IMG/VR virus record: IMGVR_UViG_3300030098_002982
Span: 1 to 29,318 of that record
Strand: one strand, 5' to 3'
DNA length: 29,318 nucleotides
From: a virus
The notes under the pieces were generated by a model. That model did no database searches. It was not told the origin of the DNA and was given only the letters and a program-made list of their open reading frames with translations. This document shows, in pieces, positions 4,105-26,525 of the stretch; the stretch's first letter is position 1, and each line of letters begins with the position of its first letter. The position numbers and the translations under genes are program-made.

Positions 4105-4817
4105 TGTATATTAAATTAGAAGAAATAGTAAATGATTTACTTATCGAAGAGGGTAAGACAAGCGAAAACGATTTCCTTAGATACTTTAAACTGGGATTAA
4201 ATGGTTTGAAAGAGCTCCACTTTGATGTGGGGGGAAATATAAAAACAGTTGAGTTAACTGTAGATTCTAATACTTTAACAGTTAATTTGCCTAGTGACTA
4301 TGTTAGGTACACAAAAATAGGATTACTTGGGAATGATGGTGACGTTCACTCACTAGGTCTTAGAAGTGATAAATCTTTAGTTAATGTAACTCCTACATCT
4401 ACATCTGTAAGCGATGATGAATTACATCCAACATATTTTGAATACGTTCAAGAATTTGGCTTAGGTGGTGGAAATAACACAAATGGTTACTATAAGGTTG
4501 ATTTAGAAAACTCAACAATACAGTTTACATCAGATCTATCAGGTGAAAGTATAATATTAGAATACATATCTAATTCTGCTATACATACTAGTGAAGACGC
4601 AGTTGTTGTTCATGAGTTTGCTTCAGACGCTATGAGAGCATATATATATTGGAAGTCTATACAGAGAAAAAGAAATATTAATCCTGCTGATAAACAAGAT
4701 GCTAGATCAGAATATTACAACAACAAGAGACTTGCTAGAGCTAGGCTTTTGAGTTTTAATAAGCAAGAAGCTTTACAAACTATAAGAAAATCGTTCAAGC
4801 AGTCTCCTAAATTATAA
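4104..4817 (+). CDS. putative head-tail adaptor / tail tubular-like protein
   Basis: This 237-aa protein has an N-terminal helical part (LEEIVNDLLIEEG, then FLRYFKLGLNGLKEL). A beta strand and turn with NLPSDYVRYTKIGLL follow at about residues 57-71. The C-terminal half has IILEYISNS and a basic helical tail. The pattern of N-terminal helices, an LPxDYV strand and a basic C-terminal helix is like P22 gp4 or T7 gp11 type adaptor proteins. It begins within the stop of the upstream gene (TAATG) and is followed six bases later by the giant tail gene. Similarity is judged by eye, so the adaptor role is probable but not certain. Confidence 0.6.
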   Translation: MYIKLEEIVNDLLIEEGKTSENDFLRYFKLGLNGLKELHFDVGGNIKTVELTVDSNTLTVNLPSDYVRYTKIGLLGNDGDVHSLGLRSDKSLVNVTPTSTSVSDDELHPTYFEYVQEFGLGGGNNTNGYYKVDLENSTIQFTSDLSGESIILEYISNSAIHTSEDAVVVHEFASDAMRAYIYWKSIQRKRNINPADKQDARSEYYNNKRLARARLLSFNKQEALQTIRKSFKQSPKL

Positions 4818-7800: not shown

Positions 7801-10730
7801 TTGCTGATGCTACATTTACTTCAGCTATAGCAACCAACAACCCTGATGGTATAACAAATACACTATTAACTGACACCCAAAAGTTAGATCCTGCAACAAT
7901 AGCGTGGAAAATATTTCACAAACCACCAAGATGGGCTAGGTATTATCATTGGGTGTATGCAAGAAACTCTTCTGTTGGTAAGTTTATGCAATTTACCATT
8001 GACGCTGCATATGTTAACAAAGGAGCAAAAGTTGGTACAGGCTCTGGAGATGGTCAGGCAGATACAAAAATATACATATCTTTAAATTCTATGGATGGTA
8101 GGATTTGGAGCTATAGTGAAAAAAACAGAGCATTGATAGGAGACTGGAGTTTTGCTGAGGGAGACAGAATAAGACTTATTACAACAAATCAGTTTACCAC
8201 TCAACCAAAATATTATGATTTTAAAATAAGTGAAGTTGGTCATTACCCTGGTAGATTTGATTTCGATACAAGTCCTGATGGGGCTGATGGGGCTGATGTT
8301 GATGGAATATCATCTAGAACAAAACTATCGAGTGATTCTCCTGTTGGTGGAGAAGAGAATGAGCCAGCATCTGCTGTTCTTGGTAAGTTTATTATAATAG
8401 ATGATCCAAAGATTTCAGGATATAGCGTAGATGATGAACAAGAATCAAAAATTCCTGGATGGGCTGGAGTTAGAGTTGAGTTGTACAGACCTAAAAAGAA
8501 TACAAATGATGGAGAGAGTTTGTATTATGAGTTTTCTGAAAGACAAGATATTTATGACGCTGGAACTGACAACAGGCGTCACGCTGGTGGCGTTGAAGGT
8601 AGTGATCAAGGATCTCTGTATGATGCGAATGATAAGACATTACTTGAGCCTGCTACTGGTGTTTTTAAAAGGGGTGATATTTGGTATAAACCAAGAGAAA
8701 CATCTACTGTAGATGATGGTGGTAACTCAAATACTCTGGGAGTGTTTTTTGTTGAAAGTTATTTCCTTAATGATTTTATGCAGACAAATCATAATAATAT
8801 AGGTAGACCACATATTAGTAGCCCATATGCTCAAGAGCAAAGAAGAAAAGCTACAGTAACATATTCTGATGTATACCAACCTGATACTCAATATAATGGA
8901 TTTCACTCCTTTAACTTTAGTCAAAGACCATATATGGACTATGATCTAACTTTAGGGTCAATACAAAAACTTGTATCTAGGGAAACAAACCTTGTTATGA
9001 TGCAGGAAGAAAAGTGTTCCACATTAATGATTGGGAAAAATATTATAAACTCTGCTACAGGAGACGCAGGTATAACTCTTTCAACAGATGTTTTACCAGA
9101 GAACGCTGTGCCAATAGCAGGAGATTATGGTGTATGCTTTAATCCAGAGTCTGTAGCAGTACATGAGAGAACAATCTATTTTATAGATATTAGAAGAGGG
9201 GTTGCTTGTAGAATAGGTGGTGATGGAATAACAGTTATATCTAATTATAAGATGATCGACTTCTTTAGAGATAAAATGGATCTATACACTACTATATTAG
9301 AAACTCAATATGAAAGTATACTGGGTGGTGGTTTATATATATTAGGTGGATATGATAGAAGGCATGGGGAATATGTTGTAACATTTCCAAATGTTTACTC
9401 TTTGGTTGTGGGAACAGCAGACGAATCATTGGCATTTTTTGAAACTGCAAACTTGAATTTTGAAACTGACAGTAGGAGGGAGGATGGTTCCACAAATTGG
9501 TTAATGAACAACGAAATAGTAAGAGATAATACAAGAAATTCAGTTTATGATGAAGATGTTTCAATTCAAACAAGAGATGGTGGAAGAAGTGTTTCTATAG
9601 CTAATAAGGCTGAAACGATTGCATTTAATGAAAAAGCAAATAGATGGTCGAGTTTCTACACCTATTATCCAGATTATTTCGCAACTCTAAATAGAATGTT
9701 CTTATCTTTCAAACATGGTGTTTTATATATCCATGACAGGGACTCAGAAAATCACTGTATTTTTTATGACAACCCTTACCCTGATGAATGTATTTTACAG
9801 TTTCCTTTTAACCAAGATGTTTCCTCTGTAAAGACATGGAACGCAATATCTATTGAGGGGGCAGATAAGCAAGAAGTTATACCAATTATAAGCACTGCGA
9901 CAAATGGGGCTGACTCTTTTGTTGTTGCTACGTCAGGCAGTGCAAATATAGAGGGGACAAACGTAAACTTTCAATCAAACGATATAGCTGTTGGAGACTC
10001 TCTTTGGTATAATGACAATGGAACATTGAGAACTTTAGGTGTTGTTACTGCTATAACTGATGCAGACACTATTGTAACAAGCGTTGGTGAGGTTAACGCT
10101 TTTATTGCAGCTAGTAGCACATCAACTGGAGCTTCTTTATTTAATGTATTTGTAATAACTGCTGATACAACAATGTATAGAACAAAATTTGAAACGAATA
10201 TCAATGACACTCAAATAGTTCATAGAACATCATACAACAATAACGCAGCAGCAAATATATCTGGACCCTGGGTTACCAGAGAGGAGGTGGCTAGTGCACA
10301 CATACCATTTGGATCTCAGTCTACATCTGCTGGAGGTGAGTATTTTGGGTTAGGATCTTGTTCTACAAATAGTTCAAATACATTACTTTATGGAAATACT
10401 GTTTTTGGTGGAAGTGGAACATCAACCAATACAGAGTTTACAAGCCCTACTTTTGCTGCAGGAGATGTTGTGTATTATGATAATAATGGAACTGAAACAG
10501 TTATAGGAACCATAGATTCTATAACAAGTGATGTTATTTTAGTTTTAAGTGGAAATGCCTCAACATCTCTTAATAATACATTTATGTACGTTAGAAAAAA
10601 CTCTACAATAGAGGGGGACAGATTAAAGGGACATTATATGATGACAAAATTAACTAAAAGAACAAAAGATAAAGTTCACTTATATGCAGCAAATGCAAAC
10701 ACAAACACAAGCGAGCTTACTAATAAATAA
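4824..10730 (+). CDS. giant tail structural protein (1968 aa), muzzle/stabilisation-like
   Basis: The N-terminus carries the motif NFQGGLNRDDDPRILPNGDY, followed by QNIRI and AENIRG, which I know from very large tail proteins of crAss-like and other Bacteroidota phages. Blocks in order: aromatic beta-rich region with YYFVWSQRYYHMILEY near residue 90; VWYHNGPADVKKIEIVARKC near 357; a Cys-rich segment at about 819-899; PPRWARYYHWVYARNSS near 1034; a likely blade region with GGYDRRHGEYVVTFP near 1508 and RWSSFYTYYPDYFATLNRMF near 1608. Two related beta domains lie at about 1703-1775 and 1857-1930. There is no signal peptide or membrane segment. The length, single-chain architecture and position after the adaptor gene support a main tail or nozzle component exposed outside the cell before infection. 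The virion role is likely; the exact part is inference. Confidence 0.7.
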   Translation: MQDKRNFQGGLNRDDDPRILPNGDYYYSQNIRILSSEDNSTMLAENIRGTEEVPFTETVEFRSGTLGEPNDFKVIGSYEDKPKDCIYYFVWSQRYYHMILEYNANTDAISTVFRDTGHSFNNVLLFERTTLITGINKIGDLLYWTSDNEFLSDSGETVHNEPKYINVEKAKAGWTVYYDGGAYTTNPTSTGEGSSFTYDINTMYPFEFYTSSNDANNDDVAAWRKRRYIDVCKTRPHAPIYFYQTPVKNVSASQVNLASVGATSPPDVNGETTALSGTLESGEIMYTDIGLDSLNSIDSLDFAYKKNNLYGFVWQFAYRYVYKDNEVGSYTEWSYVMPAPQYGTNKVDEEKQNLYNEIRVWYHNGPADVKKIEIVARKCSYIETSPDEGNKGEYYLIATIDNYYYDSSYDPDVANETALEVPQYGWSAVSILNRPYIEEMASDGTSVNRNRRPSGFINFRNDGVYSQVDPVAFDKLYDQVPKRAKSQEIIGENRLAYGNYIDGFDQVKPHFHLSPQYGADSDPELTQAIDPGEWYRMGGGGFPSNFIEEYDLNESNFGEEPEKIVGEAYWNSGYSVIDYPYQNSAGFPINYTMGASNGADLNSYWGVRKAMCVDAELYRFVYKFTFPTQSQIGQKFRIRIAQQYKHTNRWGDDGYDVEFPRKGWSNWDPYDYDAFGVQLYLEKTNFGGGVSGVIDSMISDINKMCTYGQTLEDTQGTPETNPNYGGEITHHYRTSTGETTSIWNDGFSSDVDESDAIHSFHDGNPIPNDQSYPQAAAEMRLTSCFKEGDNNNVLVVIFTPHGQLTNGGNEDPSGRPDGDCTSHYPVHNYNLKDGTETTNVHTWRKSSGGSHRDSTECGGCGSYNDPGDNECGCTDDNVRCGYHWGDQKSADGSGMGYWCDARLTFNPDLEVPETSWSETAGTNQTPSLSIKQAAEAAAFKSGAWHRFGLVYFDSKGRSSTTMLNTEDHSDALYDRNSSVYVAFPSEKKYKQQLADATFTSAIATNNPDGITNTLLTDTQKLDPATIAWKIFHKPPRWARYYHWVYARNSSVGKFMQFTIDAAYVNKGAKVGTGSGDGQADTKIYISLNSMDGRIWSYSEKNRALIGDWSFAEGDRIRLITTNQFTTQPKYYDFKISEVGHYPGRFDFDTSPDGADGADVDGISSRTKLSSDSPVGGEENEPASAVLGKFIIIDDPKISGYSVDDEQESKIPGWAGVRVELYRPKKNTNDGESLYYEFSERQDIYDAGTDNRRHAGGVEGSDQGSLYDANDKTLLEPATGVFKRGDIWYKPRETSTVDDGGNSNTLGVFFVESYFLNDFMQTNHNNIGRPHISSPYAQEQRRKATVTYSDVYQPDTQYNGFHSFNFSQRPYMDYDLTLGSIQKLVSRETNLVMMQEEKCSTLMIGKNIINSATGDAGITLSTDVLPENAVPIAGDYGVCFNPESVAVHERTIYFIDIRRGVACRIGGDGITVISNYKMIDFFRDKMDLYTTILETQYESILGGGLYILGGYDRRHGEYVVTFPNVYSLVVGTADESLAFFETANLNFETDSRREDGSTNWLMNNEIVRDNTRNSVYDEDVSIQTRDGGRSVSIANKAETIAFNEKANRWSSFYTYYPDYFATLNRMFLSFKHGVLYIHDRDSENHCIFYDNPYPDECILQFPFNQDVSSVKTWNAISIEGADKQEVIPIISTATNGADSFVVATSGSANIEGTNVNFQSNDIAVGDSLWYNDNGTLRTLGVVTAITDADTIVTSVGEVNAFIAASSTSTGASLFNVFVITADTTMYRTKFETNINDTQIVHRTSYNNNAAANISGPWVTREEVASAHIPFGSQSTSAGGEYFGLGSCSTNSSNTLLYGNTVFGGSGTSTNTEFTSPTFAAGDVVYYDNNGTETVIGTIDSITSDVILVLSGNASTSLNNTFMYVRKNSTIEGDRLKGHYMMTKLTKRTKDKVHLYAANANTNTSELTNK
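8277..8294 (+). repeat. 9-bp tandem repeat within the 1968-aa gene
   Basis: GATGGGGCT occurs twice in a row (8277-8285 and 8286-8294) and is followed by the related GATGTTGAT. It encodes an Asp-Gly-Ala loop in the tail protein and keeps the frame. Confidence 0.6.
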
Positions 10731-10741
10731 ATAATAATTAC

Positions 10742-10749
10742 TATATTTG
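10742..10749 (+). promoter_or_regulatory. Bacteroidota -7 promoter element upstream of internal virion protein genes
   Basis: TATATTTG lies between the stop of the 1968-aa gene and the ATG at 10757, with seven bases between motif and start codon. This is the same layout as at 1636-1643 and again implies a leaderless or very short leader. I see no TTG at the expected -33 distance, so the promoter may be weaker. Confidence 0.5.
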
Positions 10750-10756
10750 TAAAACT

Positions 10757-11935
10757 ATGGCAAAATTTAAAAAACATATGATGTATAGCAAATCTGGTGA
10801 AAGCAAGATGGCTAAAACATATGGAGAACATTTAGCTTTAAAAAAGAAAGGTTGGGGGCACTCTAAACCTAAAAAGAAAAAAGGAAAAGGATTATTCCCA
10901 CCAAAGTATTTTATTGGTGCACTAATTAGTGGTGTAAAAGGAGCTAAGGATGCTAAAAAACAAGAAGCTCAAGCAGAGGCAGAAAGACAGGCTATGTTAG
11001 CCAAAGAAGAGCAAGTTAGAGCTAGTAGACAAAAACTAACCATGTCTCCTGAGATTGAGAAGATGAAGGAGGGTCTTGGTGGTACAGAAATAAACAGAAG
11101 ACAGGAAGCTGCAGAAAGATCCAGAGCAGGTGCTATGGCTGCTGCAACAAGAGGTGGAACAAGAGTGGATCCATTTGCTGCTGCTAAGGCAGGTGCAGCA
11201 CAAGAGTCTGCATTGGCGTCAGAACAATCTGCTGCTCAAAGAAAAGGTTTAGAGGCAGGTGTTGCTGAAAGAGGGAGACTTAGAGCAACCCAGGAATCTA
11301 GGGAGCAAGCAGATTTAGCAAGAGCAGCACAGATGTCAGATTATGCTAGAGAGGATGTTATGGCTGCCCAAGCAAATAAAGCTGCTTATCAACAACAGCA
11401 ATATGGTGCTATTGACGCAGGTATAGGTACAGTTTTTGGGGGTTTTGCAAGAGAAGGGTCTTTAGTTAAATCTAAAAAGAAAGGATCTTTAAAAGATAGA
11501 ATGAGGAGTAAAGCTGTTCCTGAAAAGAAAGATTTTATTGAAGGTGAAGAGCCAGAGGTAACACCAGGAAAGTTTTCCCACAAAGAAAACCCTATAGACC
11601 TTGTGCAGAAGAATGGAGAAGATGGAGCAGAAAAGATTGGTGAGATGACAGGTGGTGAAGCTATAGTGCCACCAAAGAATGTTAAACAAATTAGAAAAAT
11701 GATCAACTCTGATGATGGTGATGCACTTGTTGATCTTATGGATAGACTGTTAACCAAGTGGGATAGAGAGGCAGAGCAAAATCAAGAATCTAAAGAGGTT
11801 TTTGATAAAACAAAAAAAGCAAGAGAAGGATCTATGGTTAGATCTAGGGCTGCTAGACACCAGGGTGTTAGAAAGCCAAGACTTCCAATAGGTAAAGACA
11901 AGTTTAAAAAAAGAAGAACTTCATTATTTGACTAA
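10757..11935 (+). CDS. putative internal (ejection) virion protein, Ala/Lys-rich
   Basis: This 392-aa protein has a basic N-terminus (KPKKKKGKG at about 38-46) and a hydrophobic stretch YFIGALISGV at 51-60. A long Ala/Gln/Glu/Arg-rich helix or coiled coil follows (about 64-215), then a Gly-rich turn TVFGGF. The C-terminal domain has the motif HKENPIDLV...GEMTGGEAIVPP (275-306), an acidic helix and a very basic tail. The helix-hydrophobic-helix build resembles T7 gp14-like internal proteins that are ejected into the host envelope. It is first of a set with the 616-aa and 2810-aa proteins and has its own promoter motif. I know the GEMTGGEAIVPP motif only from hypothetical phage proteins. The ejection role is inferred from composition and order. 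Confidence 0.6.
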   Translation: MAKFKKHMMYSKSGESKMAKTYGEHLALKKKGWGHSKPKKKKGKGLFPPKYFIGALISGVKGAKDAKKQEAQAEAERQAMLAKEEQVRASRQKLTMSPEIEKMKEGLGGTEINRRQEAAERSRAGAMAAATRGGTRVDPFAAAKAGAAQESALASEQSAAQRKGLEAGVAERGRLRATQESREQADLARAAQMSDYAREDVMAAQANKAAYQQQQYGAIDAGIGTVFGGFAREGSLVKSKKKGSLKDRMRSKAVPEKKDFIEGEEPEVTPGKFSHKENPIDLVQKNGEDGAEKIGEMTGGEAIVPPKNVKQIRKMINSDDGDALVDLMDRLLTKWDREAEQNQESKEVFDKTKKAREGSMVRSRAARHQGVRKPRLPIGKDKFKKRRTSLFD

Positions 11936-11946
11936 AATATAATTAA

Positions 11947-13797
11947 ATGCCAGTACAAAATGTAGCAGATATAGTAGGTAGACGTAACCTAGTTGAGGAG
12001 GCTCAGGGTTGGGTTAATATTGGGATGAAAAAGAAGGAGCTTGAGATGCAAAGGCAGAAAGCTGAAAAAGAAAATAAGCCCAAACCTTATCAATTTGAAT
12101 TTGCTGATTGGGGTTCTCAAAATCAGTATATGCAAGAGTGGATGGGAGACCTACAGGATAAATCAGTTGCTTTAACTATGGCTGATTCTCAACTTCTTAG
12201 GATAGCTTATTATGATGAAAACTGTGGTGCTGAATGTCAAATGGCACATAAAAGACTTAGAAATAGACACCACGCTGCAAAAACCATGCAAAATCTACAA
12301 ACTCAGTTTAAAACTGATTATGAAAAATTAAAAGATTTAATAGAAAATCCTCAAACATCAGGGGATTATGACAACGCTGAAAACAGGGCGAAGCTCAGAA
12401 GAATGAGAGAAGAATGGGTTAATGGAATGAAGTTAGATATTGATTCTGATGGTAGGTTAATAGTTTTGCAAGGTGAAGATATTCAGATTGATAAGGTTGA
12501 TGATAATGGGAACCCTTTGTATATGACTGCTGACAACAAAGAGACAAGCGACCCTGAATCAGCAGCGACAGATGAAAATGGTGAAAAAATAAGAGCAAAG
12601 ACAGTAGATCCTGAAAATAAAAATTGGGTAGGTACAACAATAGATGATTACTACTCTACGCTTGACCTAGGAAGGGTAGACAGAAATGCTACTAAATGGG
12701 ACCCATCTATATTTGAAAACCTTGTTGAGTATGAAAATTATGATCCAGAAGGGGGTCCTGATGGTCTTGGGTTTTATGATGTTGATCCTAACAGTCAGGT
12801 TTGGCAAGAAATGGAGATATTCTTATTTGGTAGAGATGGATTAACTCAAAGTGGTTATTCTATAATGAATAGCGAAACAAAACCTATTATACAGGCAATA
12901 AGGGATTCAAAAAATGATCAATCATATCAACCAACAAGAGATGAAATTATACAGTTTGCATTTAACGCTGGTGGAAGGTATAAGCATGGTGCTCACAAAG
13001 AAGATGTGTTAAAATCCCTAGAGAAAAAACAAACAGAAGAACCAGCAACCTTAGACGATATGCTTTCAACTTACCAAGGAAATATTGAGGGTATTAACTA
13101 CTATGAGTTAAATGAAGATCCAAATGCTGATGAAGGGTCTGGCTCTTATATACTTTCTGATCAGGGTCAGAAGTTTAATTCAAAAGCTTCAGTGACAATA
13201 GAATCTAGTGGTGATGTAGAAGAAGCTGAAATATTGTTTGATACAGATGGGGGTATAACACTTCTCAATGGTAATAATCGAATACAGGGATTAGATGCAA
13301 ATCAGAAGACAATTATAGGTGTTGGTCAAACTGTTAAATTTGATTATAGTAAACTTGAGGTTTTACCAAGATATAAGGATGGTCAATTTATCACTGAAGA
13401 ACAATTAGAACAACTCATTAAGGAAAAAGATGACAAATGGTTAAAGGAAAATATAACTTGGGATATTGGTGTTAGAGGAAAAATAAGAAGTGATGATGAG
13501 AACACTAGAACAAGTTGGGCTAATAATGGTATAGGTAACACAGGTGGTGAAAGTGCTAGTGTTATAGTTCCACTTAGTTCTGTTAGAGAGGATGTGATGG
13601 ATGCAGGACCTGAGAAATCTAAGAACCCAATGTATGTAGAACACTTTGAGGAGCTTAAAAATAGACTAAATGAAGAGGGTTTTAAGGGTACAGCTTCACC
13701 AAGCTCTAAAAAGATATTATCATGGGTAGAGTGGAAAGCACAGAACCCTAATGGTACAACAGACGAATATGTAGACTACACAAATAAGAATAAATAA
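11947..13797 (+). CDS. putative virion/cargo protein (616 aa), function unknown
   Basis: The N-terminal 50 residues are a charged helix (GMKKKELEMQRQKAEKEN), followed by YQFEFADWGSQNQYMQEW and a C-x3-C pair (C93, C97) before a basic helix. The middle and C-terminal parts are acidic, with beta-rich segments and a lysine-rich helix (ITEEQLEQLIKEKDDKWL). There is no signal peptide, membrane segment or enzyme motif that I recognise. The stop codon overlaps the ATG of the 2810-aa gene (TAATG), so the two are translationally coupled. This suggests a partner of that giant protein inside the capsid or an ejected complex. No family is recognised. Confidence 0.55.
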   Translation: MPVQNVADIVGRRNLVEEAQGWVNIGMKKKELEMQRQKAEKENKPKPYQFEFADWGSQNQYMQEWMGDLQDKSVALTMADSQLLRIAYYDENCGAECQMAHKRLRNRHHAAKTMQNLQTQFKTDYEKLKDLIENPQTSGDYDNAENRAKLRRMREEWVNGMKLDIDSDGRLIVLQGEDIQIDKVDDNGNPLYMTADNKETSDPESAATDENGEKIRAKTVDPENKNWVGTTIDDYYSTLDLGRVDRNATKWDPSIFENLVEYENYDPEGGPDGLGFYDVDPNSQVWQEMEIFLFGRDGLTQSGYSIMNSETKPIIQAIRDSKNDQSYQPTRDEIIQFAFNAGGRYKHGAHKEDVLKSLEKKQTEEPATLDDMLSTYQGNIEGINYYELNEDPNADEGSGSYILSDQGQKFNSKASVTIESSGDVEEAEILFDTDGGITLLNGNNRIQGLDANQKTIIGVGQTVKFDYSKLEVLPRYKDGQFITEEQLEQLIKEKDDKWLKENITWDIGVRGKIRSDDENTRTSWANNGIGNTGGESASVIVPLSSVREDVMDAGPEKSKNPMYVEHFEELKNRLNEEGFKGTASPSSKKILSWVEWKAQNPNGTTDEYVDYTNKNK

Positions 13798-16700
13798 TGG
13801 ATTTAGAAAAACTATATAGCTTAATGCCTGGTGGAATGTTCCTTAGCATGGAAGAGTTTCAAGACTTTATAGATGCAGGTGGGATGAAAAATGCTCTTTC
13901 TTTAATCCCAGAAGGGTCAATTTCTGATGAGCAGCGAAAACAATTAATAAGTTCTTTAGGTTTATCAACAGAGGAGTCTGACTTAAAAAAAAAAGACCAA
14001 AGCGAAATTTCTGGGGATTTGGGAGATGGTACATCAGATGTGGAAGATGGTGGTTTGGACTCTTCAGAGATTCAAGATGATCAGTTAGAAACAGAGGGAG
14101 AAGAGGTTGAAGAAACAGAGGGAGAAGAGGTTGAAGAAGAAGAATACATTCCACAGTCAGAGCTAACTGAAGAACAAATTTTAGATCAAAAAACAGGAGA
14201 ATTACCTATCTATAGGGTTAATTCAAGAAACATATCACCAGATATTATGCTCCAGTTTTTAGATGATCCTGATTTCATAGATTCTGTAATAAGTGGTAAA
14301 AACAGAGTTTATATTAAAAACTCAGTGTCTATGTCAAAAATCCTAGATGAAAAAATAGATTCTAGGAAGTCTCAATTAGAAGAGGGAGATGATAGTAAGT
14401 TGTCTGCATTAAATAGTGAAGACAGTGATTTGGAAGATATTACAATATCTGCTAATAGAACTGAAACAGAAGAAAAAAGGAAAGAAAGAATATTGGGCTA
14501 TGGCGTTGATGAAAACGCTGTGGATCCACGTGAAATCTACGACTACCTAATTGACAACTATAAATTATCAAACTCACAAGCTAAAGGTATTATAGCAAAC
14601 ATAATGTCAGAATCAAGGTTTGATTCTTCTGCGTTAGGAGATTATATGATTCCTGATGCAACTGGTAAAATGAAAAACCACGAAAGAATGGTTGTTCAAA
14701 ATTCAGCAGGGGAATGGGTGTATAGTCGTTTTCATAAAACAAAAGCAGGAAAAAAGGTTGAAGGCAAATTAGTTAAAAAAATCAAACACACTTCAGGTGG
14801 TTTATTCCAGCATCATGATACCAGACTAGAATCATTGATTAATTCAGCAGGGAAAGATTGGGCAACAAATTGGAAGGCTCAAATTGATTTCGCCATGAAT
14901 GAAAGCGAAATGTTAGACTATTTAGCTTCTACTAATGTTGTTGATGAGAATAGTGCTGTTGAGTATTTTATGAGAATATTTGAAAAGCCAAGTGGTTTAT
15001 CAGCAGAAGATATAAAAGCCAGACAGCAGATTCTTTCTAAATTTAAAAAATTTGGCAGGCTTCCTAAGAAAGAAAAAAACAGAGAAAACGAATATAGCAA
15101 TATAGCAAATATTGTAATACCAGCAGATATTGACACAAACATAGAGGAAAACTTCCAAGATCATGTTAATAGTAAATTGTCACAGGCTGCCTCTAAAAAT
15201 GATGTTACTAAATTTCTAGATATAATATTTCAGGGAAGAACTCCAGATGCTGCTGAAATGGCTTATTGGCAAAAGTATATAAGGGATAACAACCTTGACT
15301 CTAGTTTAGATATACAACAAATATTACTTGATTACCAAAACAATAAGGAGCTACAACAATATAACTATATAAATGATCCAAATTACAATATCCCTGATTA
15401 CGTTAATGACAACCCTATTTTAAAAAAGGCTTATAATATGAGGAAGGATTATCCATTCCTCCCTCAAGATATAAATAATAAGTTAAATGATATAGATAAT
15501 GGGTATGAATCTACTAGATTTCTTTTAAGCACAGATCCAGATGGAGCATTTAAAGGAAAATGGGGTGAGATAATATTTAATGCTAAAAATAGCAATCATG
15601 GTATAAATGGTTATGAAATTGATTTAAAAGATTTGTATGAAAAAGGGTATAGCTCTTTATACACTGCTGATGAAATAAAGTTTATAGAAGAAATGTATTC
15701 TAACTGGAACCCATATAGAAATGGAATTGAGATACAAAACCAAAGACACCTACCTTGGGATGAAAAAAGCGAAGGCTTATTTGCTTCGACAGAAAGTATT
15801 CAGGATTATGAAAAAAGAAGAGGAAAAAAATGGAGCAAAATATCTGACGAAGACAAGATTAAGTTTTATGAGCTAATGAATAGACCAGAAAAAATGATCA
15901 ATGATAGGCTTGATAATGGATGGTCTCATATTGGAGAGGGAAATTATCTTCACCTAGAATCAGGTGTTGTTTTAGCATCTGATGACGAGGGTGGAAATCC
16001 ACTGCTGTCAGATAATGGAATGAAAGCAGACATAGTTGAAAAGCTGCATAAAAATCCTGAATTTTTTAAGGACGCATCTGATGAGGATTTGCTGAAATTT
16101 TATGAAGAGGTTTTTCCAGTAAATGCAGAATGGAGAAATCAAAAAATAGAAAAACTAAGAGAGAAGGCTGATAGGAAACCAGGTCTCCTGTCTTTTATGA
16201 ATGTTATGCCAGGAGTTAGAGGGTTCCCATCTAAAGAGGAGGTGAAAGCAAGTAGGAGACAAAGACTAGAGGTGGAAGAGGGAGAGCTAAGAGATCAGGT
16301 CGCCTCTTTAATCATGGGTTCCCTAGATGATGTTTATAATGATGTGGATGCTTGGTCAAACAAAATAGGATACTATAAGGATAGTGACGATGCCTATGAG
16401 AAATTTTTTGCTGCAGCAGACTGGTTGGAGGAACAAAAGAAGCTAATGGATAAGTATCCTAAAAAACCAAATGGAGATCCAGATCTTGAAAACATGAGCA
16501 ACAAACAAAGAAAAGAATATATAGATTTACATACTGCGTTTAACGCAGTTTACAATGGGTCTTATCAGGAGAGTAAGTCTCAGGCTGACAAGTTTTCTGA
16601 AAATCCAATTAATAAAATGTTCAAATCTATAAATGACACAAACAATAGGATTATTAAATACTACACTGATACAGACGATGAATATCAACTGAGAAACCTT

Positions 16701-19700
16701 TATTTAATTAATCAAAGAGCTAGACAAAAGAAGGTTGATCAACTACAGAATGAAGGGGGGTTGAAAAAACACCTATATAATTCTGGAAATGTAACAGAAA
16801 ATACTGTATTGAAATTCACTAAAGGTCTGATGGGCTTACCCAGAAGGGTGAAGGGTTGGTTTTCAGATGAAGAAAATTATGATTGGACAGATGAATTGGC
16901 AGAGTTTTATCACTATAGGGTAGATTATGATGAAATGAAAACCCCAACTGAACTATCAACAGCTTGGGATTATTACGAAGCAGAGGTTGACGACTATAGA
17001 GTTCTAGTAGATAGAAGGGGTAAAGTTCTTCAGGTTATCACCAAAGACTGGATGCAGGTAGATCCAGAAACATCAAAAGAGATTATAGATAAGTATAAAA
17101 AAAATAAAGAAGACTATAATGTTGTAAAAAAGCAAAACAATAAAGCTTTCTGGCATCAAGCCCTACAGTCAGGAATAGATCTTACAGCAGATATATATAT
17201 AACTAGAAGAATTGCACCACTTGGTACAACAGAAAGAGCTAGAAGATTTCTTGGAGTTGGTACCATGATGGGTACTTACAATTTAAAGCAGTATGAGGAT
17301 TTTAGACAAAAGGGCTTAGAACAGGGAATGGACCAAGCACAGGCTGATGACTACGCAAATACAGTTGCTACACTTTGTAGTATTACACAGGCTATAAACC
17401 CAAACTTAAATGCCTTTAAAATACCAGCAGGTATGACAACTAAAACTGCTTTTAGAGCTGCTGTTCAAGATATTAGCATGGGAGGGATTGGTAGTTCAGT
17501 TATTAAAAAGGGTATACCAAGAGCTATATATGAGGCTGGGCTAGAGGGTCTTCAAGAGGTTGCAGAACTAGAAACAGAAAGGCTTTTAAATTCAACAACA
17601 TACAGGGGCTATAATTTTGACCTAGAGAGAAATATGAGTGAGTATAAGCAGGCGTTTGTTACTGGTGCAATGCTTGGTGGTGGTGCAGATGTAACCACAA
17701 GTATTGGTCAATTTGGTGGAGCTGTGTTTACAAAAGCTGGAAGGAGTAGGTTGCAGTTAGAAGGTATGTTGCACGCTTATGAAAATCAACAAGAGTTTTA
17801 CGAAGACCTTAAAAGTAGGATTGGGAAACCAACGTCAATAAATGGGAAGACAGTTACTCTAACTGATTCTCAAGTTGACGAGAAGATTCAACATTTTCAA
17901 AATTTATTTCAACAACTTGATAATGTCAAGTCTGAAGCTAAGAAAAATGGAGTGGAGATAACTGGAAACCATGACAAGGTTCTTTTGGATTTAATTGATA
18001 GAAGAAATAGGTTAATGAGCCTTCAAGGTGTGCAGGATATAGATGTGAGAAATACCATTGAATCTCAACTAGCTAATGTAAATAATAAAATAAATAGAAT
18101 ACTAAAAGGTGAAAAGTTAGCTGATGTAATAAAAGATGAGCCAGAATTTGATCTAGGTGTTGATGAGAAAAACCTATCTACTGCTGCTAAAGTTGCACTT
18201 AGAAAAATAAAGAATGAACAAGAGTGGAACAATATAGAGCATGCAGATGTTATAACTGGACTAGAATCTGTAATAGAAAAATTAGAAGCAAAAAAGAATA
18301 GAACAAAAGAAGAGGAGACCCTTTTAAATATTCACAAAGAGATATTAAGTGATGTTAAATCAATTAAACCTACTATAAATGAAACAAGAAACAAAGAAGA
18401 CGATGCAATACTCGCAGCAGCAAAAAAACGAGATGGGAAGGCTTCCACTGTGGCTAAGGGCAAAGCTAAGACCACTAAAAAAGGAGACACAGTTAAAAGT
18501 GTTAAAGAGGCTGATGGAACAACCTCAACAGAAATAACCACAAAGGGTGGTAAAAAAATAAAGATAAAAGAAAATGGAACAGTGTCTGTTCAAGGTGGAT
18601 CAGATCAATCTATAGCAGGTGTTATTACAAATCCAGATGGATCAACTGCATCTGTTGTCCTTACAGATCCTAGTAAGTTAAATTCTGTTAAAAAGAAATT
18701 AGCAAAATTAAAGAAGGATTTGGAGGCTGGAAAAATAACTCCTGCAGAATTTGAAATGGAAGTGGAAGCAATGAGTGACGCATCTTTATTAACTGACCCT
18801 GATTTAGTAACAGGAGCAGAATTATCTGATGTTACTAGCAATCTAATTAAGAGTGGTAAGATAAGTAATATTACTGGGTCTGATGTAGATGCTATAATAG
18901 ATGAGGTCGTGGAAGAGGAACAGAAAACAAAATACGATGAGAAAGGTTGGCTAGAGTGGTTCAAGTCACTTTGGAGAACCAGAGGTTTGTTGCCTATGAA
19001 AATATTTTTAAGGCAAAGAAAAATGAAGAGTCGTATACAGATGTGGGAAAGTAAGTTGGGTGTGTTAAACTCAAGGCTATTAGAAGCTTTTGAATCTCAT
19101 TCTAAGAAGTTTGGAAAAAAGGGGTTTACTGTAGACCAAATAAACGAGGCGTTTTTAGACCAGATGTTTGAAATAGATGTATTAACTGATGAGATAAATT
19201 CCCTTAAAAATGATTTAAAATCTAAAAGCTTACCAGCTAAAGCTAGGAGAGCATTGAACGCTGAACTAAAAGCTAAGCAAAATAAGATCAAGGAGATAGC
19301 TGAAGCAAATAAGAATAAAGTTACTATGATGGATATTCTAGCTAAAGATGAAGCATTATTTGATGTCCTGCTAGACTCTAGAGTGTTCCTAGATAATATG
19401 AGCATGGAAATGCTAGAGGCTGGTGTGGTTCCAGAGGCAATGATACCAACAGTCCAACAAAACCTTGGTTTGTATTTAACAAAACAATATAGAGCACATC
19501 ACGATAGGGATTATCACAATCTAATTACAGAGTTAACTGACGCTGTGATGAGTGGTAAGCTAACAAAAGATCAGGAGGCTAAACACGTAAGAGAGCTTCA
19601 GATTTTAAATAAAGCTATTGCTTATATAAAAACAAATTTAGATAAGCAGTACGAAAAAGAAAGAGCTAGACATATAGAAACTCATCCACATTTAGTTGAT

Positions 19701-22229
19701 TCTAATGGTGAACCTATATCAGGTAAAGCTTTAAATGGAACCAATATTGTGGCACCAACTAAAATAACTCAGGGTGTTATTAAAGCTAAGATACAAGAAT
19801 ACTTTGGTAAAAAAGGTGATAGTATGTTTGTTGCTGGAATTAGGGAAAATGTTTCAAGAGACAATATCTTTATAAAAAGAAAAGATCTGCCACAATATCT
19901 AGAAGATTTATTGTCAGAAATTGATAATCCAGTTTTTAACATGGTCAATACTGCTAGTAATTTAATAAACTCTCTAGAGATAAATAGCTATAGAGCTGAT
20001 GTTGTTAATATGTTTGAAGGAGATCTACTACACACTAGACCTGTTGGCGATATGAATACTGAAATTATTGTAAATGGAAAAAAGTATTATACATATCCTG
20101 GTTTAGCAAAAGAAATAAATGGTCACCTAGGATCTATTGATGGTGGTCTACTTACCTTAATGAATACTCCATTTATTGGTCACGCACTAAAATCCTATCT
20201 TAAAACTCTAGTGTTTGTTAAGAAGGGTAAAACTGTTTGGTCTTTCCCAACTCACGTCAGAAACTTTACATCAAATATTGGTTTTGCTATAGCAAATGGT
20301 CATATAAACCCAAAAACATTCTGGAAGGGAACCAGTGTTGCTATACAGCAATTTGGAATGTCTTCTAACGCAGATAAACAAAAAGCTTGGCAAACTATGT
20401 TGGAGGCAGGTATATTAAGTAGTTCTGATCTCGCAGAAATAGATGCCATTATAGCATTAGCTGGAGATCCTGAATACTCATCTATGTTTCTAAACCCTGA
20501 GTCTTTAACAGACCAAGACTGGAAAAGGTTAAAGGAAAAACACCCAGTTATGGCTTGGCTTGGTCGTAAAGCTAGAGGGGTTGATAATGCCTACATGTTT
20601 GAGGATATTGTTTGGAAGGCTTCAGGGTTTTTACATGAGGTTTCTAGGTACCAAAATGCAGGCTACACGTATGACCAGGCTTTAGAAATAGCAGGTCAGA
20701 TTGTTCAAAATGCCTACCCCACATATGACATGTTACCACCAATAGCAAAGGCGTTTAGAGCTGCTCCAGTTGTGGGTACGTTTGTTTCCTTCCCTGCTGA
20801 GGTTATCAGAACAACTGCTATGACTTGGAGGCAAATAGTTAGGGAGATAAAATCTGACAATAAAAAGGTTAGGGAAATAGGGTATAAGAGACTTGCTGGT
20901 AGTTTAACTCACGCTGTTGGGTTTCCATACCTTTTAAAGTTAGCATTAAGTGGTGTTAATCTTGCAGCAAGCATGTTTGGGAGTGATGATGAAGACGAAG
21001 AGAAAGAGAGCCTGATTAATCCTGACTCTTTATGGGATACCTACAACAATAAGGAGCAGGAAAATTTAATAAGATCATTAGGTCCAAAGTGGCATAAATA
21101 TTCTCAAATAGTCACAATTAAAAACCCTGAACCTGGTGTTTATTATTACTGGAGTATGTTGGAAAACAATCCACATGGTTATATTGGTGAAATAATAAAC
21201 GCAAGCGTTGGTGAAATAAATAGGGGTAAATTAAAAAGACTAGAGGAGGACTTTAAAGAGGTGAAAAAAGACTACGATAATGGGAAAATTACACTTGAAG
21301 AGTACAATGAAAAATATTCTGAATTTAGAAAAAAGGAAAAAGAACTATTTGGAAAATATACAAATGTAGCAGACCCAACAATTAGTATGATATTTGCAGA
21401 GAGTCCTGTGCTACACGCTGTGTTTGAACCATTTATTGGGGAAGATATTTTATTCGCAGCAGTTAGGGATATAAACGAAAATAAAGACGATCTTGGAAAA
21501 CCAATATGGCAAGATGCTGACACCAGTGATGTTAGGTTTGCTAAAGCCCTTGGATATATGTTTAAAAAAGTAAGTCCAAGTGCTGTTCAGCAGATACTTA
21601 GACTATTGGCTTCTACCAACCCTAACCTTGCTGAAACCTTAGCAGAGATGGATCCAGGTGGATGGGGTGATGATGAGAAGTTTTTAGGAGTAAATCTAAA
21701 GAAAGATTATGACTTAGACTATGAAGCTTTAGCGTTCTTTGGTGGTGTTAGGATTTCTAGATTTGATATTAGAGATAGCTTTAAATATAATATGATGAGG
21801 GCTAATCAGGAACTTAAAGAAATTAACCCAAATCAGAGTTCACCATCTGATGTTTGGGATCGAACATATGAGATTTTAGAATATATAGAGCACAACTTTA
21901 ATGCTGCGTGGAAACTTGGGTTGGAGCAGACAGTGGTCGAAAGTTCTAGAACAGGATTAAAAACAGGTCCATTTACAGATGCTGATGGTGAGCCAGTAAA
22001 TAGCACTATTAATAGATTTGCTATATTAGAAGATATAAACTTTAGTGATTCAGCGATTAAAATATTGCAAAGAAACAGAACAGAGTTTCCTTATATAAAC
22101 GAGTTTTTAATGAGAAGGTATTCAAATCAATATAAATTAGGTGTTATAGAAGAAAAGGAAAGAAAGCTAGAGGAAAAGAAAAAAGAAGAAGACATAACAA
22201 AAAAAGTAAAAAGATCTTTAACTAAGTAA
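13797..22229 (+). CDS. giant internal virion protein with phage lysozyme domain (2810 aa)
   Basis: Residues 1-90 are a small N-terminal region, then comes an acidic Glu-rich linker (96-118) made by a DNA duplication. Residues about 244-410 resemble the Phage_lysozyme2 (tail lysozyme) fold, with IIANIMSESRFDSSALGDY, where Glu272 is the likely catalytic acid, and GGLFQHHDTRLESL near 333-346. FQGRTPDAAEMAYW near 477-490 recalls DUF4214-type motifs, but weakly. A region of small, Gly-rich helices (about 1153-1310) could be membrane-active. Residues about 1538-1662 are low complexity. The last third (THVRNFTSNIGFAIANG near 2150; PVVGTFVSFPAEV near 2324) resembles LPD38-like domains of phage polyvalent proteins. 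The chain ends in a charged coiled coil. This fits an ejected protein that opens peptidoglycan and helps DNA cross the envelope. Confidence 0.75.
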   Translation: MDLEKLYSLMPGGMFLSMEEFQDFIDAGGMKNALSLIPEGSISDEQRKQLISSLGLSTEESDLKKKDQSEISGDLGDGTSDVEDGGLDSSEIQDDQLETEGEEVEETEGEEVEEEEYIPQSELTEEQILDQKTGELPIYRVNSRNISPDIMLQFLDDPDFIDSVISGKNRVYIKNSVSMSKILDEKIDSRKSQLEEGDDSKLSALNSEDSDLEDITISANRTETEEKRKERILGYGVDENAVDPREIYDYLIDNYKLSNSQAKGIIANIMSESRFDSSALGDYMIPDATGKMKNHERMVVQNSAGEWVYSRFHKTKAGKKVEGKLVKKIKHTSGGLFQHHDTRLESLINSAGKDWATNWKAQIDFAMNESEMLDYLASTNVVDENSAVEYFMRIFEKPSGLSAEDIKARQQILSKFKKFGRLPKKEKNRENEYSNIANIVIPADIDTNIEENFQDHVNSKLSQAASKNDVTKFLDIIFQGRTPDAAEMAYWQKYIRDNNLDSSLDIQQILLDYQNNKELQQYNYINDPNYNIPDYVNDNPILKKAYNMRKDYPFLPQDINNKLNDIDNGYESTRFLLSTDPDGAFKGKWGEIIFNAKNSNHGINGYEIDLKDLYEKGYSSLYTADEIKFIEEMYSNWNPYRNGIEIQNQRHLPWDEKSEGLFASTESIQDYEKRRGKKWSKISDEDKIKFYELMNRPEKMINDRLDNGWSHIGEGNYLHLESGVVLASDDEGGNPLLSDNGMKADIVEKLHKNPEFFKDASDEDLLKFYEEVFPVNAEWRNQKIEKLREKADRKPGLLSFMNVMPGVRGFPSKEEVKASRRQRLEVEEGELRDQVASLIMGSLDDVYNDVDAWSNKIGYYKDSDDAYEKFFAAADWLEEQKKLMDKYPKKPNGDPDLENMSNKQRKEYIDLHTAFNAVYNGSYQESKSQADKFSENPINKMFKSINDTNNRIIKYYTDTDDEYQLRNLYLINQRARQKKVDQLQNEGGLKKHLYNSGNVTENTVLKFTKGLMGLPRRVKGWFSDEENYDWTDELAEFYHYRVDYDEMKTPTELSTAWDYYEAEVDDYRVLVDRRGKVLQVITKDWMQVDPETSKEIIDKYKKNKEDYNVVKKQNNKAFWHQALQSGIDLTADIYITRRIAPLGTTERARRFLGVGTMMGTYNLKQYEDFRQKGLEQGMDQAQADDYANTVATLCSITQAINPNLNAFKIPAGMTTKTAFRAAVQDISMGGIGSSVIKKGIPRAIYEAGLEGLQEVAELETERLLNSTTYRGYNFDLERNMSEYKQAFVTGAMLGGGADVTTSIGQFGGAVFTKAGRSRLQLEGMLHAYENQQEFYEDLKSRIGKPTSINGKTVTLTDSQVDEKIQHFQNLFQQLDNVKSEAKKNGVEITGNHDKVLLDLIDRRNRLMSLQGVQDIDVRNTIESQLANVNNKINRILKGEKLADVIKDEPEFDLGVDEKNLSTAAKVALRKIKNEQEWNNIEHADVITGLESVIEKLEAKKNRTKEEETLLNIHKEILSDVKSIKPTINETRNKEDDAILAAAKKRDGKASTVAKGKAKTTKKGDTVKSVKEADGTTSTEITTKGGKKIKIKENGTVSVQGGSDQSIAGVITNPDGSTASVVLTDPSKLNSVKKKLAKLKKDLEAGKITPAEFEMEVEAMSDASLLTDPDLVTGAELSDVTSNLIKSGKISNITGSDVDAIIDEVVEEEQKTKYDEKGWLEWFKSLWRTRGLLPMKIFLRQRKMKSRIQMWESKLGVLNSRLLEAFESHSKKFGKKGFTVDQINEAFLDQMFEIDVLTDEINSLKNDLKSKSLPAKARRALNAELKAKQNKIKEIAEANKNKVTMMDILAKDEALFDVLLDSRVFLDNMSMEMLEAGVVPEAMIPTVQQNLGLYLTKQYRAHHDRDYHNLITELTDAVMSGKLTKDQEAKHVRELQILNKAIAYIKTNLDKQYEKERARHIETHPHLVDSNGEPISGKALNGTNIVAPTKITQGVIKAKIQEYFGKKGDSMFVAGIRENVSRDNIFIKRKDLPQYLEDLLSEIDNPVFNMVNTASNLINSLEINSYRADVVNMFEGDLLHTRPVGDMNTEIIVNGKKYYTYPGLAKEINGHLGSIDGGLLTLMNTPFIGHALKSYLKTLVFVKKGKTVWSFPTHVRNFTSNIGFAIANGHINPKTFWKGTSVAIQQFGMSSNADKQKAWQTMLEAGILSSSDLAEIDAIIALAGDPEYSSMFLNPESLTDQDWKRLKEKHPVMAWLGRKARGVDNAYMFEDIVWKASGFLHEVSRYQNAGYTYDQALEIAGQIVQNAYPTYDMLPPIAKAFRAAPVVGTFVSFPAEVIRTTAMTWRQIVREIKSDNKKVREIGYKRLAGSLTHAVGFPYLLKLALSGVNLAASMFGSDDEDEEKESLINPDSLWDTYNNKEQENLIRSLGPKWHKYSQIVTIKNPEPGVYYYWSMLENNPHGYIGEIINASVGEINRGKLKRLEEDFKEVKKDYDNGKITLEEYNEKYSEFRKKEKELFGKYTNVADPTISMIFAESPVLHAVFEPFIGEDILFAAVRDINENKDDLGKPIWQDADTSDVRFAKALGYMFKKVSPSAVQQILRLLASTNPNLAETLAEMDPGGWGDDEKFLGVNLKKDYDLDYEALAFFGGVRISRFDIRDSFKYNMMRANQELKEINPNQSSPSDVWDRTYEILEYIEHNFNAAWKLGLEQTVVESSRTGLKTGPFTDADGEPVNSTINRFAILEDINFSDSAIKILQRNRTEFPYINEFLMRRYSNQYKLGVIEEKERKLEEKKKEEDITKKVKRSLTK
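14088..14135 (+). repeat. perfect 24-bp tandem duplication in the 2810-aa gene
   Basis: A 24-base unit beginning GAAACAGAGGGAG is present twice with no mismatch (14088-14111 and 14112-14135). It encodes ETEGEEVE twice and lies in an acidic linker before the lysozyme domain. Perfect identity suggests recent slippage and a length-tolerant linker. Confidence 0.9.
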
Positions 22230-22231
22230 TT

Positions 22232-22732
22232 ATGAAATTAGAAGTATTAAGAATATCAAGTGCAGAGGACTCAACGTCTGGTATATTATTTATAGTGGAT
22301 GATACAGCAGATAGCCCACACAGTGAGGGGTTTAGGTGTAAAAGGAGTTTTGTGTGTTATACATTAGAGGATGAAAAAAGAGAAAAAAAAGTTTATGGGG
22401 AAACTAGAATCCCTGCTGGAACGTATGAAATTAAACTCAGAACAGAGGGTGGATACCATCAAAAGTATTCTAAGAGATTCCCTGGTATTCATAGGGGCAT
22501 GCTTCATGTCACTGATGTTCCTGGTTTTGAGTATATTCTCATTCATTGTGGCAATACTGATGAACATACTGCAGGCTGTTTGCTCGTTGGCGACACCCAG
22601 GAAAACAACCAAATAAAGGGAGATGGGTTTATAGGTAGATCTACTCAAGCCTACAAAAGAATATACCCAAGAATAGCAGAAGAACTACTTAATAACAGAA
22701 AAGTGTTAATAACTTACAAAGATATTGCATAA
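22232..22732 (+). CDS. DUF5675 family protein, candidate peptidoglycan-active lysis protein
   Basis: The 166-aa protein has the signature of DUF5675: CYTLEDEKREKK near 42-53, GETRIPAGTYEIKLR at 56-70, a FPGIHRGMLHV segment, and IHCGNTDEHTAGCLLVG at 104-120. Its H105-x-G-N-x4-T-x-G-C116 arrangement looks like the His/Cys active site of L,D-transpeptidase-like enzymes, although the family is not functionally assigned as far as I know. No signal peptide or membrane segment is present, so it would need a holin to reach the wall. It starts two bases after the 2810-aa gene. The family assignment is strong; the lytic function is inference. Confidence 0.8.
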   Translation: MKLEVLRISSAEDSTSGILFIVDDTADSPHSEGFRCKRSFVCYTLEDEKREKKVYGETRIPAGTYEIKLRTEGGYHQKYSKRFPGIHRGMLHVTDVPGFEYILIHCGNTDEHTAGCLLVGDTQENNQIKGDGFIGRSTQAYKRIYPRIAEELLNNRKVLITYKDIA

Positions 22733-22833: not shown

Positions 22834-23853
22834 ATGAGGGATTATAAAAAAGAATATAGAAAGTTTGGATCTAAGCCAGAGGTTATGGCTAAGAAATATG
22901 AGAGAACTAAAGCTAGGCGAAAAGCAATTAAGTCAGGTTTGGTTTCCAGAAATGATGGTAGTGATTTAGATCATGTAAATGGAATATATAATAGTAAAGT
23001 AATGAAAACAACTCAAAAGAAAAACAGAGGAAAGTTGGGAGAGGGTGGTAGAAAAAAGGGAGTCCCTCATAATTATCCTAAAAATAGAAAGAGTAGGAAA
23101 TATGTAAATGGTGGGAAAGTTGATGGGGAAAGAGACTTCTTAAAAATAAATAAAAATTTCACAGACACATCTTCACGTGTGGATACAAATACTGGTCCAG
23201 ATATGGCTAGTAGAAAACAGTTGGGAGAAAAACGTAAAATCCTTAAACAGCAGGAGTTTGACAAAAAGATGGATCAACAGAAGAAAGCTCAAGGAACTAT
23301 TGATATACCTCGAAGAGAAAAGCAAATGAAAGCAATGGCTAGAACAAACCCTGTGGGTAGTTTATATGTGGGTGCTGGTGCTATTGGTGATAAAATGAGA
23401 GGTGAAAAAAAAGATAAAACAATGAGAAGTGGTGGGGTAGCTAGAAAAAGAGGTCTTTGGGATAATATACACGCAAAAAGAAGAAGGATAGCTTCTGGCT
23501 CTGGAGAGAAAATGAGAAGACCTGGAAGCAAGGGTGCTCCCACTAGAAAAGCTCTAATAGAGAGTAAAGCAGAGGATGGTGCAGTAGTATATAACAAACC
23601 TAAAAGAACTCCAGGTCACCCAACTAAATCACATATGGTTGTTGTAAGAAAACCAGGTGGTGGAAAAAAAACAATTAGGTTTGGTCAACAGGGTAAGAGG
23701 GTTGGTTCAGAACAGGGAACAGCAGGTAAACCTAAAAAAGGGGAGTCTAGAAGAATGAAAATGAAGAGAAAATCATTCAAAGCCAGGCATGGTAAAAATA
23801 TAGCAAAAGGAAAAATGTCTGCAGCATATTGGGCAGATAAAGTAAAGTGGTAA
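22834..23853 (+). CDS. very basic three-module phage protein (degenerate HNH-like N-terminus, DUF5872/DUF6321-like C-terminus)
   Basis: This 339-aa protein is packed with Lys and Arg and probably binds nucleic acid. Residues 1-68 (RDYKKEYRKFGSKPEV, then DGSDLDHVNG and KKNRGK) match the pattern of small phage HNH-like proteins with a D-x-D-H-x2-G core, but the usual N-x8-N finish is poorly kept. Residues about 201-237 contain RGLWDNIHAKRRR and GEKMRRPGSKGAPT, a module I associate with DUF5872. Residues 252-339 contain YNKPKRTPGHPTKSHMVVV, IRFGQQG and a final FKARHGKNIAKG...AAYWADKVKW, a module I associate with DUF6321 in marine phages. Both DUF names come from memory. The gene follows a strong hairpin and is seven bases from the HNH gene. 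The role may be genome packaging or head proteins; this is not established. Confidence 0.7.
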   Translation: MRDYKKEYRKFGSKPEVMAKKYERTKARRKAIKSGLVSRNDGSDLDHVNGIYNSKVMKTTQKKNRGKLGEGGRKKGVPHNYPKNRKSRKYVNGGKVDGERDFLKINKNFTDTSSRVDTNTGPDMASRKQLGEKRKILKQQEFDKKMDQQKKAQGTIDIPRREKQMKAMARTNPVGSLYVGAGAIGDKMRGEKKDKTMRSGGVARKRGLWDNIHAKRRRIASGSGEKMRRPGSKGAPTRKALIESKAEDGAVVYNKPKRTPGHPTKSHMVVVRKPGGGKKTIRFGQQGKRVGSEQGTAGKPKKGESRRMKMKRKSFKARHGKNIAKGKMSAAYWADKVKW

Positions 23854-23859
23854 AACACA

Positions 23860-24255
23860 ATGTCAATTAAAGAAAAAAAAACAAAACAGTTGGGGATGAA
23901 TCCTGGAACTGCATCTAATAGATTAAAGAAATCTATCCTATTTAGCTTTGCTCAAAAGCTTGGGTATTGTTGGTGCTACCAATGTGCAACAGAAATATCA
24001 GATATAAATGAATTTACAGTAGAGCACAAAGAGCCATGGCTTGACTCAGATGATCCTGTTGATAAATTTTTTGATCTAGACAATATTGCGTTCTCACATT
24101 CATCATGTAATTACGCTGCTGCTAGGGTTAAAGAAGCTATGCCATGTCCATCAGTCACTGCATATAGAAAAGGTTGTAGATGTGATGGCTGTAAAAAAGC
24201 CAGAAATGATTATAGAACAAAAAGAAAAAAATTAAAAGGAAGAAACGATGAGTGA
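23860..24255 (+). CDS. HNH endonuclease
   Basis: This 131-aa protein has a compact HNH core: CWCYQC (C39 and C42 of a zinc pair), EH at 55-56 in TVEHKEPW, N75 in DLDNIAFSH, H80 and C83-N84. This gives the E/H-N-H order expected of the ββα-metal fold with structural zinc. The C-terminal part has a second Cys set (C96, C106, C108, C111) in PSVTAYRKGCRCDGCKKA, a tail motif common in phage HNH proteins. It probably nicks or cuts DNA. HNH proteins often work with terminase in packaging, but they are usually nearer terminase, so here a homing or accessory role is also possible. Its end overlaps the next gene by eight bases. Confidence 0.8.
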   Translation: MSIKEKKTKQLGMNPGTASNRLKKSILFSFAQKLGYCWCYQCATEISDINEFTVEHKEPWLDSDDPVDKFFDLDNIAFSHSSCNYAAARVKEAMPCPSVTAYRKGCRCDGCKKARNDYRTKRKKLKGRNDE

Positions 24256-26420: not shown

Positions 26421-26451
26421 AATTAATTAAATTTAGTTAATACTCAATTAG

Positions 26452-26525
26452 TACACCCAGTAGGACTTGAACCTACAACCTACAGCTTAGAAGGCTGTTG
26501 CTCTATCCAGTTGAGCTATGGGTGT
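26452..26525 (-). tRNA. tRNA-Arg (anticodon UCU)
   Basis: A 74-base cloverleaf reads from 26525 to 26452. The acceptor stem is ACACCCA with TGGGTGT. The D arm is GCTC...GAGC, the anticodon stem ACAGC with GCTGT around CTTCTAA (anticodon TCT), and the T arm GTAGG-TTCAAGT-CCTAC. The discriminator base is A and CCA is not encoded, so CCA must be added by the host enzyme. It decodes AGA, the favoured arginine codon of the window. It lies two bases after the stop of the 87-aa gene, within the operon. Confidence 0.95.

Follow-up and report, generated by a model that had tools for sequence, protein, structure and literature searches.

The window analysed here is a 29.3-kb stretch of DNA from a virus record, with a late gene block on the + strand. 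It contains a giant gene at positions 13797 to 22229 (+) that encodes 2,810 amino acids. The product of this gene is probably a gp16-like internal virion protein that is ejected, carrying a lysozyme for entry and an LPD38-related module that would act as a conduit.

The giant open reading frame is a real gene, because the probability that 2,810 codons stay free of stops at the base composition of the window is about 10^-106, and because its ATG overlaps the stop codon of the preceding 616-aa gene by one base. The frame begins with ATG, has no internal stop, and shows a GC content of 0.46/0.33/0.26 at the three codon positions. The single 8.4-kb gene described in the initial annotation of this DNA is thus an intact frame. 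Its first 200 residues are 27% D+E and include an acidic, low-complexity linker at about residues 60-125 (13974-14171, +).

Residues 246-402 (14532-15002, +) match the Pfam family Phage_lysozyme2 (PF18013), both in the whole protein (E 7.5e-10, 39.6 bits) and as an isolated segment (E 2.8e-12, 47.4 bits); the curated cut-off of this family is 28.2 bits. A tail-lysozyme-like domain with Glu272 in SESRF had been proposed before, with a Phage_lysozyme2 match expected in residues 230-420, and the Pfam profile finds it there. In the alignment with the tail lysozymes of Synechococcus phages B23 and Sf-FP1, Glu272 (codon 14610-14612, +), the E of MSESRF (M270), stands opposite the conserved Glu in NINRESSF / NIMRESGF, after the first helix, and is the predicted catalytic acid. 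In the giant, about 40 inserted residues separate the catalytic helix from the GLFQ..R motif. When the lysozyme part is used in tblastn, the matches are tail lysozymes of cyanophages and, in other phages, tape-measure proteins. These data support a lysozyme domain around Glu272, predicted to be a peptidoglycan hydrolase; the call consists of one domain family and one Glu, from which the enzyme activity is predicted. The cyanophage tail lysozymes share Phage_lysozyme2 and the same Glu with the giant, but they are far shorter (856-900 aa) and belong to large-genome cyanophages, and the Sf-FP1 gene, unlike that of the giant, lies near baseplate-hub genes.

More than 120 giant phage ORFs have a C-terminus homologous to the last 890 residues or so of the window protein. 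From homology, profiles and predicted structure, this C-module was modelled as residues 1870-2759 (19404-22073, +). Its most conserved part, residues 2142-2338 (20220-20810, +), has columns invariant in A1, A2 and A5 and contains the motifs KT...RN, Y...D...K and P.G.FVSFP.E..R. A tblastn search of 50,697 phage records with the whole giant gave matches only to the C-terminal part, in nine records. They include Pseudoalteromonas phage vB_Pun_Y3, Pelagibacter phage HTVC027P, phage 023Pt_psg01 and Cellulophaga phages phi18:3, phi13:2 and phi19:3. The match to phi18:3 gp123 has an E-value of 2e-12, with about 26% identity over residues 2022-2439, and that to its family, phrog_22602, an E-value of 3e-24. 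The vB_Pun_Y3 protein is an ART polyvalent protein. In this phage, residues 3098-3416 of the polyvalent protein (3,421 aa; L002:237-10502) recur with 100% identity as the first 319 residues of the next ORF (10528-13611), reflecting either a recent duplication or an assembly artefact.

A search of IMG/VR seeded by an alignment of the tblastn relatives confirmed the C-module in at least 557 stretches, the best 80 of which were used further, and the module was also found at 36 loci in bacterial genome assemblies. Close relatives of the whole giant protein were not found in IMG/VR. The HMM of the C-module detects 122 ORFs, and in 93 of the 96 complete ones the module ends 150 residues or less from the C-terminus. 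Among 39 giants scanned for other domains, the window protein included, ART-PolyVal is present in ten, LPD1 in eight and LPD5 in seven; InPase, LPD3, MuF_C, ddrB-ParB and methylase domains occur as well. A C-terminus of the polyvalent type, as first suggested, is supported; many C-module relatives carry polyvalent-protein domains. Phage_lysozyme2 is present in the window protein only among these 39, and a separate search of 44 other C-module contigs found it in none.

The initial annotation also described this end of the protein as LPD38-like, and here the results are divided. The Pfam LPD38 model (PF18857) does not match the giant at E<=1 or E<=10, so the LPD38 match that had been expected is absent; its HMM gives no match at the right place in the window, nor does it match the C-module relatives tested. 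As positive controls, true LPD38 proteins were readily detected in the Pseudomonas-family genomes searched, with 108-153 bits. Profile-profile comparison and predicted folds, on the other hand, point to kinship. With hhalign, 112 C-modules aligned to 85 LPD38-bearing C-termini over 386 collinear columns with a P-value of 4e-5 (1e-5 for another alignment version), compared with 0.33 for a reversed control and 0.0066 for the best of 12 block shuffles; global hhalign was inconsistent between alignment versions and was excluded. AlphaFold2 models of the window module (pLDDT 75, pTM 0.62) and of one LPD38 module (pLDDT 73, pTM 0.63) both show helices and beta-hairpins in similar order. A Foldseek search of viral models with the window module returned 31 significant neighbours, several of them named "large polyvalent protein associated domain-containing protein", and 15 of the 31 are also within the best 50 for the LPD38-module model. 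The Foldseek list for the latter names LPD38 explicitly and includes LT_GEWL proteins. Because the TM-scores of the window module to its neighbours range from low to moderate and peak at about 0.5, we consider the evidence from profiles and models that the C-module is a divergent relative of the LPD38 module to be good but not final.

Comparison with phi18:3 provides the main clue regarding the location of the protein. In this phage, gp120 (227 aa), gp121 (499 aa) and gp123 (1,935 aa) are annotated as structural from MS/MS. In phi18:3, phi19:3, phi38:1 and Gundel_1, the gene order is tail proteins, a large tail protein, a small protein (about 200 aa), a medium protein (about 500 aa) and the giant. 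The same trend is seen more widely: in the 68 relatives with at least 3 kb of upstream sequence, the ORF directly before the giant encodes 250-800 aa in 58 cases, and the ORF preceding that one encodes 120-450 aa in 52. In the window, the giant follows an Ala-rich, basic 392-aa gene (10757-11935, +) and a 616-aa gene (11947-13797, +), and this 392/616/2,810 set fits the small-medium-giant layout. A homologous giant that is present in virions and sits at the same gene position makes it likely that the window protein is an ejected internal virion protein, as had been proposed. The earlier suggestion that the 392- and 616-aa proteins complete a set resembling ejected internal proteins agrees with their sizes and gene position, which make them candidate first and second members of the cassette; no homology to ejection proteins was detected. 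Neither was found to be homologous to the cassette proteins of the relatives or to T7 gp14/gp15, no homologues of the 616-aa protein were found, and the 392-aa protein gave only a BLAST match to phi38:1 gp99 (E 0.065) that is not significant by profile.

Further upstream are a 223-aa virion structural protein (1649-2320, +; phrog_14543, with syntenic relatives), a 237-aa virion structural protein (4104-4817, +; phrog_13977, with relatives in L007, L005 and L001) and a 1,968-aa tail/virion structural protein (4824-10730, +; phrog_14478, E 6.6e-75). The last one has matches in 88 phage records, mostly flavophages, and all three resemble tail genes of phages of Cellulophaga, Flavobacterium and Tenacibaculum and of other flavophages. 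The virus is likely to be a Bacteroidota podovirus because the relatives of its tail genes belong to Pachyviridae and Pervagoviridae, isolates of which, Gundel and Calle, have podoviral morphology (PMC8776804).

In such a podovirus, the giant would occupy the position of T7 gp16 and be stored in the head, to be ejected before or together with the DNA. At entry, the N-terminal lysozyme domain would open a local hole in the peptidoglycan, and the helical LPD38-related C-module may form, or dock to, a trans-envelope conduit through which the remaining chain and the DNA could pass inwards. The products of the two genes directly upstream would be smaller internal proteins of the same apparatus.

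Between the two recognised modules lies a long central region, residues 403-1869 (15003-19403, +), with no recognised domain or detectable homologues. The only domain-like signal in it is a weak DUF4214-like stretch (E 0.059) just past the lysozyme domain, at about residues 465-496 ('IFQGRTPDAAEMAYWQKYI'; 15066-15500, +). The DUF4214, GvpG, SlyX and FrpC matches in the giant all fall short of the respective cut-offs and were attributed to chance or composition. Sequence and fold searches of the PDB with the giant returned nothing useful. Gly-rich stretches, which the initial annotation regarded as possibly membrane-active, do occur at about residues 1261-1350, 1561-1620 and 2071-2130, but a scan of the whole giant in 19-residue windows found no strong transmembrane helix (best mean hydropathy 1.44); a membrane role of these segments is possible. 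Residues 1246-1318 (17532-17750, +; 'EAGLEGLQE...AFVTGAMLGGGADV') consist of an E..E..QE helix and, after it, a Gly-rich run. The giant shares this motif with seven others, so that 8 of 103 proteins have it in total, compared with 0.22 expected in shuffles, although several of these seven are close relatives of one another. It also gives a weak profile match (P 7e-4, 72 columns) to the N-module shared by the flavophage giants; this is the only match found between the N-terminal and central region of the giant and the N-module of phi18:3, phi38:1 and Gundel_1. Podoviridae sp. ctfjg026 (L008:27328-38907) encodes a 3,859-aa giant at the same gene position, and its repeated N-terminal motif 'AHSLFEAQGYTKG.DAF' resembles, by eye, 'LYSLMPGGMF.SMEEF' in the N-terminal part of the window protein.

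The central region is also where a different view of the protein would place its main function. The giant could be a polyvalent effector first, in which the lysozyme only aids entry and the 1,400-residue centre consists of unrecognised enzymes or inhibitors that, once injected, act against host proteins or defences in the cytoplasm. The ART-PolyVal, InPase, ddrB-ParB, methylase and MuF_C domains of the C-module relatives are consistent with this, and polyvalent proteins have been proposed to be injected effectors (PMC5512222). However, Pfam, PHROGs and NCBIfam revealed no enzymatic domain in residues 403-1869. Polyvalent proteins combine several enzymatic domains in one chain, and the lysozyme is the only one recognised in the giant. 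We consider an effector function of this kind rather unlikely; it is compatible with the ejection of the protein, and neither reading excludes the other.

Two further possibilities place the lysozyme elsewhere. The protein could be located externally, as part of the tail or tail tip, and carry a tail lysozyme in the manner of the Phage_lysozyme2 proteins of cyanophages or tape-measure proteins, which are indeed the nearest relatives of its lysozyme domain. Yet it has no tape-measure or baseplate homology, in short-tailed phages a C-module and gene position such as its own belong to internal or polyvalent proteins, and the module is at the chain end in nearly all relatives, so that an external position is improbable. 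It is still harder to believe that the giant is unpackaged and acts late in the infected cell, for example in lysis. A peptidoglycan hydrolase domain would suit such a role, but the homologous phi18:3 giant sits in the virion, and a separate DUF5675 gene with relatives annotated as peptidoglycan hydrolase or L,D-carboxypeptidase is present just downstream.

As an ejected internal protein, the giant has parallels in several known systems. Among the closest is phi18:3 gp123 (Pachyviridae, phrog_22602). It has the homologous C-module, and its gene, in the same position, follows those of a small and a medium virion protein, but it is only 1,935 aa long, has no Pfam-detectable lysozyme and shows no detectable kinship in its N-terminal part. 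In T7, the order is gp14 (196 aa), gp15 (747 aa) and gp16 (1,318 aa, with SLT at the N-terminus). Like the giant, gp16 comes from the last gene, also the largest, of a set of three for internal proteins and has an N-terminal hydrolase, the partners in the window corresponding by position only; unlike the giant, its hydrolase is of the SLT family, and it has no detectable homology to the C-module. An hhalign comparison of the giant with gp16 detected no homology (P 0.18), T7 core proteins are absent from the 50 best matches listed in the PDB fold search, none of which reaches E<=0.001, and the solved ejection proteins gave no sequence or fold match. The best reading, by analogy, is that the giant would be gp16-like in function, and homology to gp16 is not claimed.

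The same general layout is present in the DarB-like proteins of the Bcep22 group. Burkholderia phage DC1 gp67 has SLT at residues 80-172 and LPD38 at 4332-4536. Its homologue JC1 gp69 (4,515 aa) is found in virions together with gp67 (196 aa) and gp68 (510 aa), and is represented there by 51 unique peptides (PMC9144972). Like the giant, DC1 gp67 and JC1 gp69 combine an N-terminal hydrolase with a C-terminal LPD38-type module and are encoded by the last virion gene; they differ in their size (4,515-4,650 aa), SLT domain, methylase and helicase cargo and canonical LPD38. More generally, LPD38-bearing polyvalent proteins share with the window protein a C-terminal helical module, kin by profile and predicted fold, but they match Pfam LPD38, whereas the window protein has neither this match nor a recognisable cargo enzyme.

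According to the initial annotation, such proteins have received little description beyond the T7-like and crAss-like phages. This view is not sustained: the C-module is present in hundreds of phage contigs, and the combination of a hydrolase with LPD38 is already known from Bcep22-like phages such as DC1, in its gp67 (PMC6630229, PMC5512222). Giant injected proteins with lysozyme or transglycosylase domains, lysozyme fusions included, were described by Iyer et al. in 2017 (PMC5512222) and reported for Bcep22 and Atu_ph08 (PMC6630229). Cargo proteins of crAss-like phages include PhicrAss001 gp45, gp46, gp47, gp49 and gp50 (PMC10172136); the nine phage records matched by the giant in tblastn include no crAss phages. 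The giant belongs, as a divergent member, to a protein type that is already known; what the window contributes is a C-module that has diverged, a hydrolase of a different family and a stretch of 1,400 residues to which no function can be assigned.

One may speculate, with less than even confidence, that the LPD38-type module, canonical and divergent, serves as a delivery chassis in short-tailed phages generally, as a gp16-like ejection body with exchangeable cargo. The present data are compatible with this idea, short of proof. If it is true, lysozyme, transglycosylase, ART, ParB and methylase-helicase would all be cargo carried through the envelope, and the podoviral "polyvalent proteins" would be one homologous family of ejection proteins in which the cargo is swapped. 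The giant joins the literatures on ejection proteins and on polyvalent effectors via one C-module, traceable by profile and predicted fold in hundreds of phages. It is a Bacteroidota-type example, with a lysozyme domain that is small and directly testable.

Several other genes of the window deserve mention. The DUF5675 protein (166 aa; 22232-22732, +) is encoded directly 3' of the giant gene; some of its relatives carry the annotation peptidoglycan hydrolase or L,D-carboxypeptidase, so that it could serve as the endolysin, apart from the virion lysozyme. Near the structural genes there is also an HNH endonuclease (131 aa; 23860-24255, +; phrog_23251). The - strand carries a DnaB-like helicase and small genes, between which lies a tRNA-Arg (TCT) at 26451-26525 (-). 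Finally, the last 87 residues or so of a basic 339-aa protein (22834-23853, +; phrog_7595) have counterparts, mostly at 60-85% identity, in ORFs of some 100 records of phages of cyanobacteria, Roseobacter and Pelagibacter. This C-terminal end is also found in ORFs downstream of C-module giants (L051, L056, L083 and L109), and its conservation across unrelated hosts, as judged from these alignments, appears striking.
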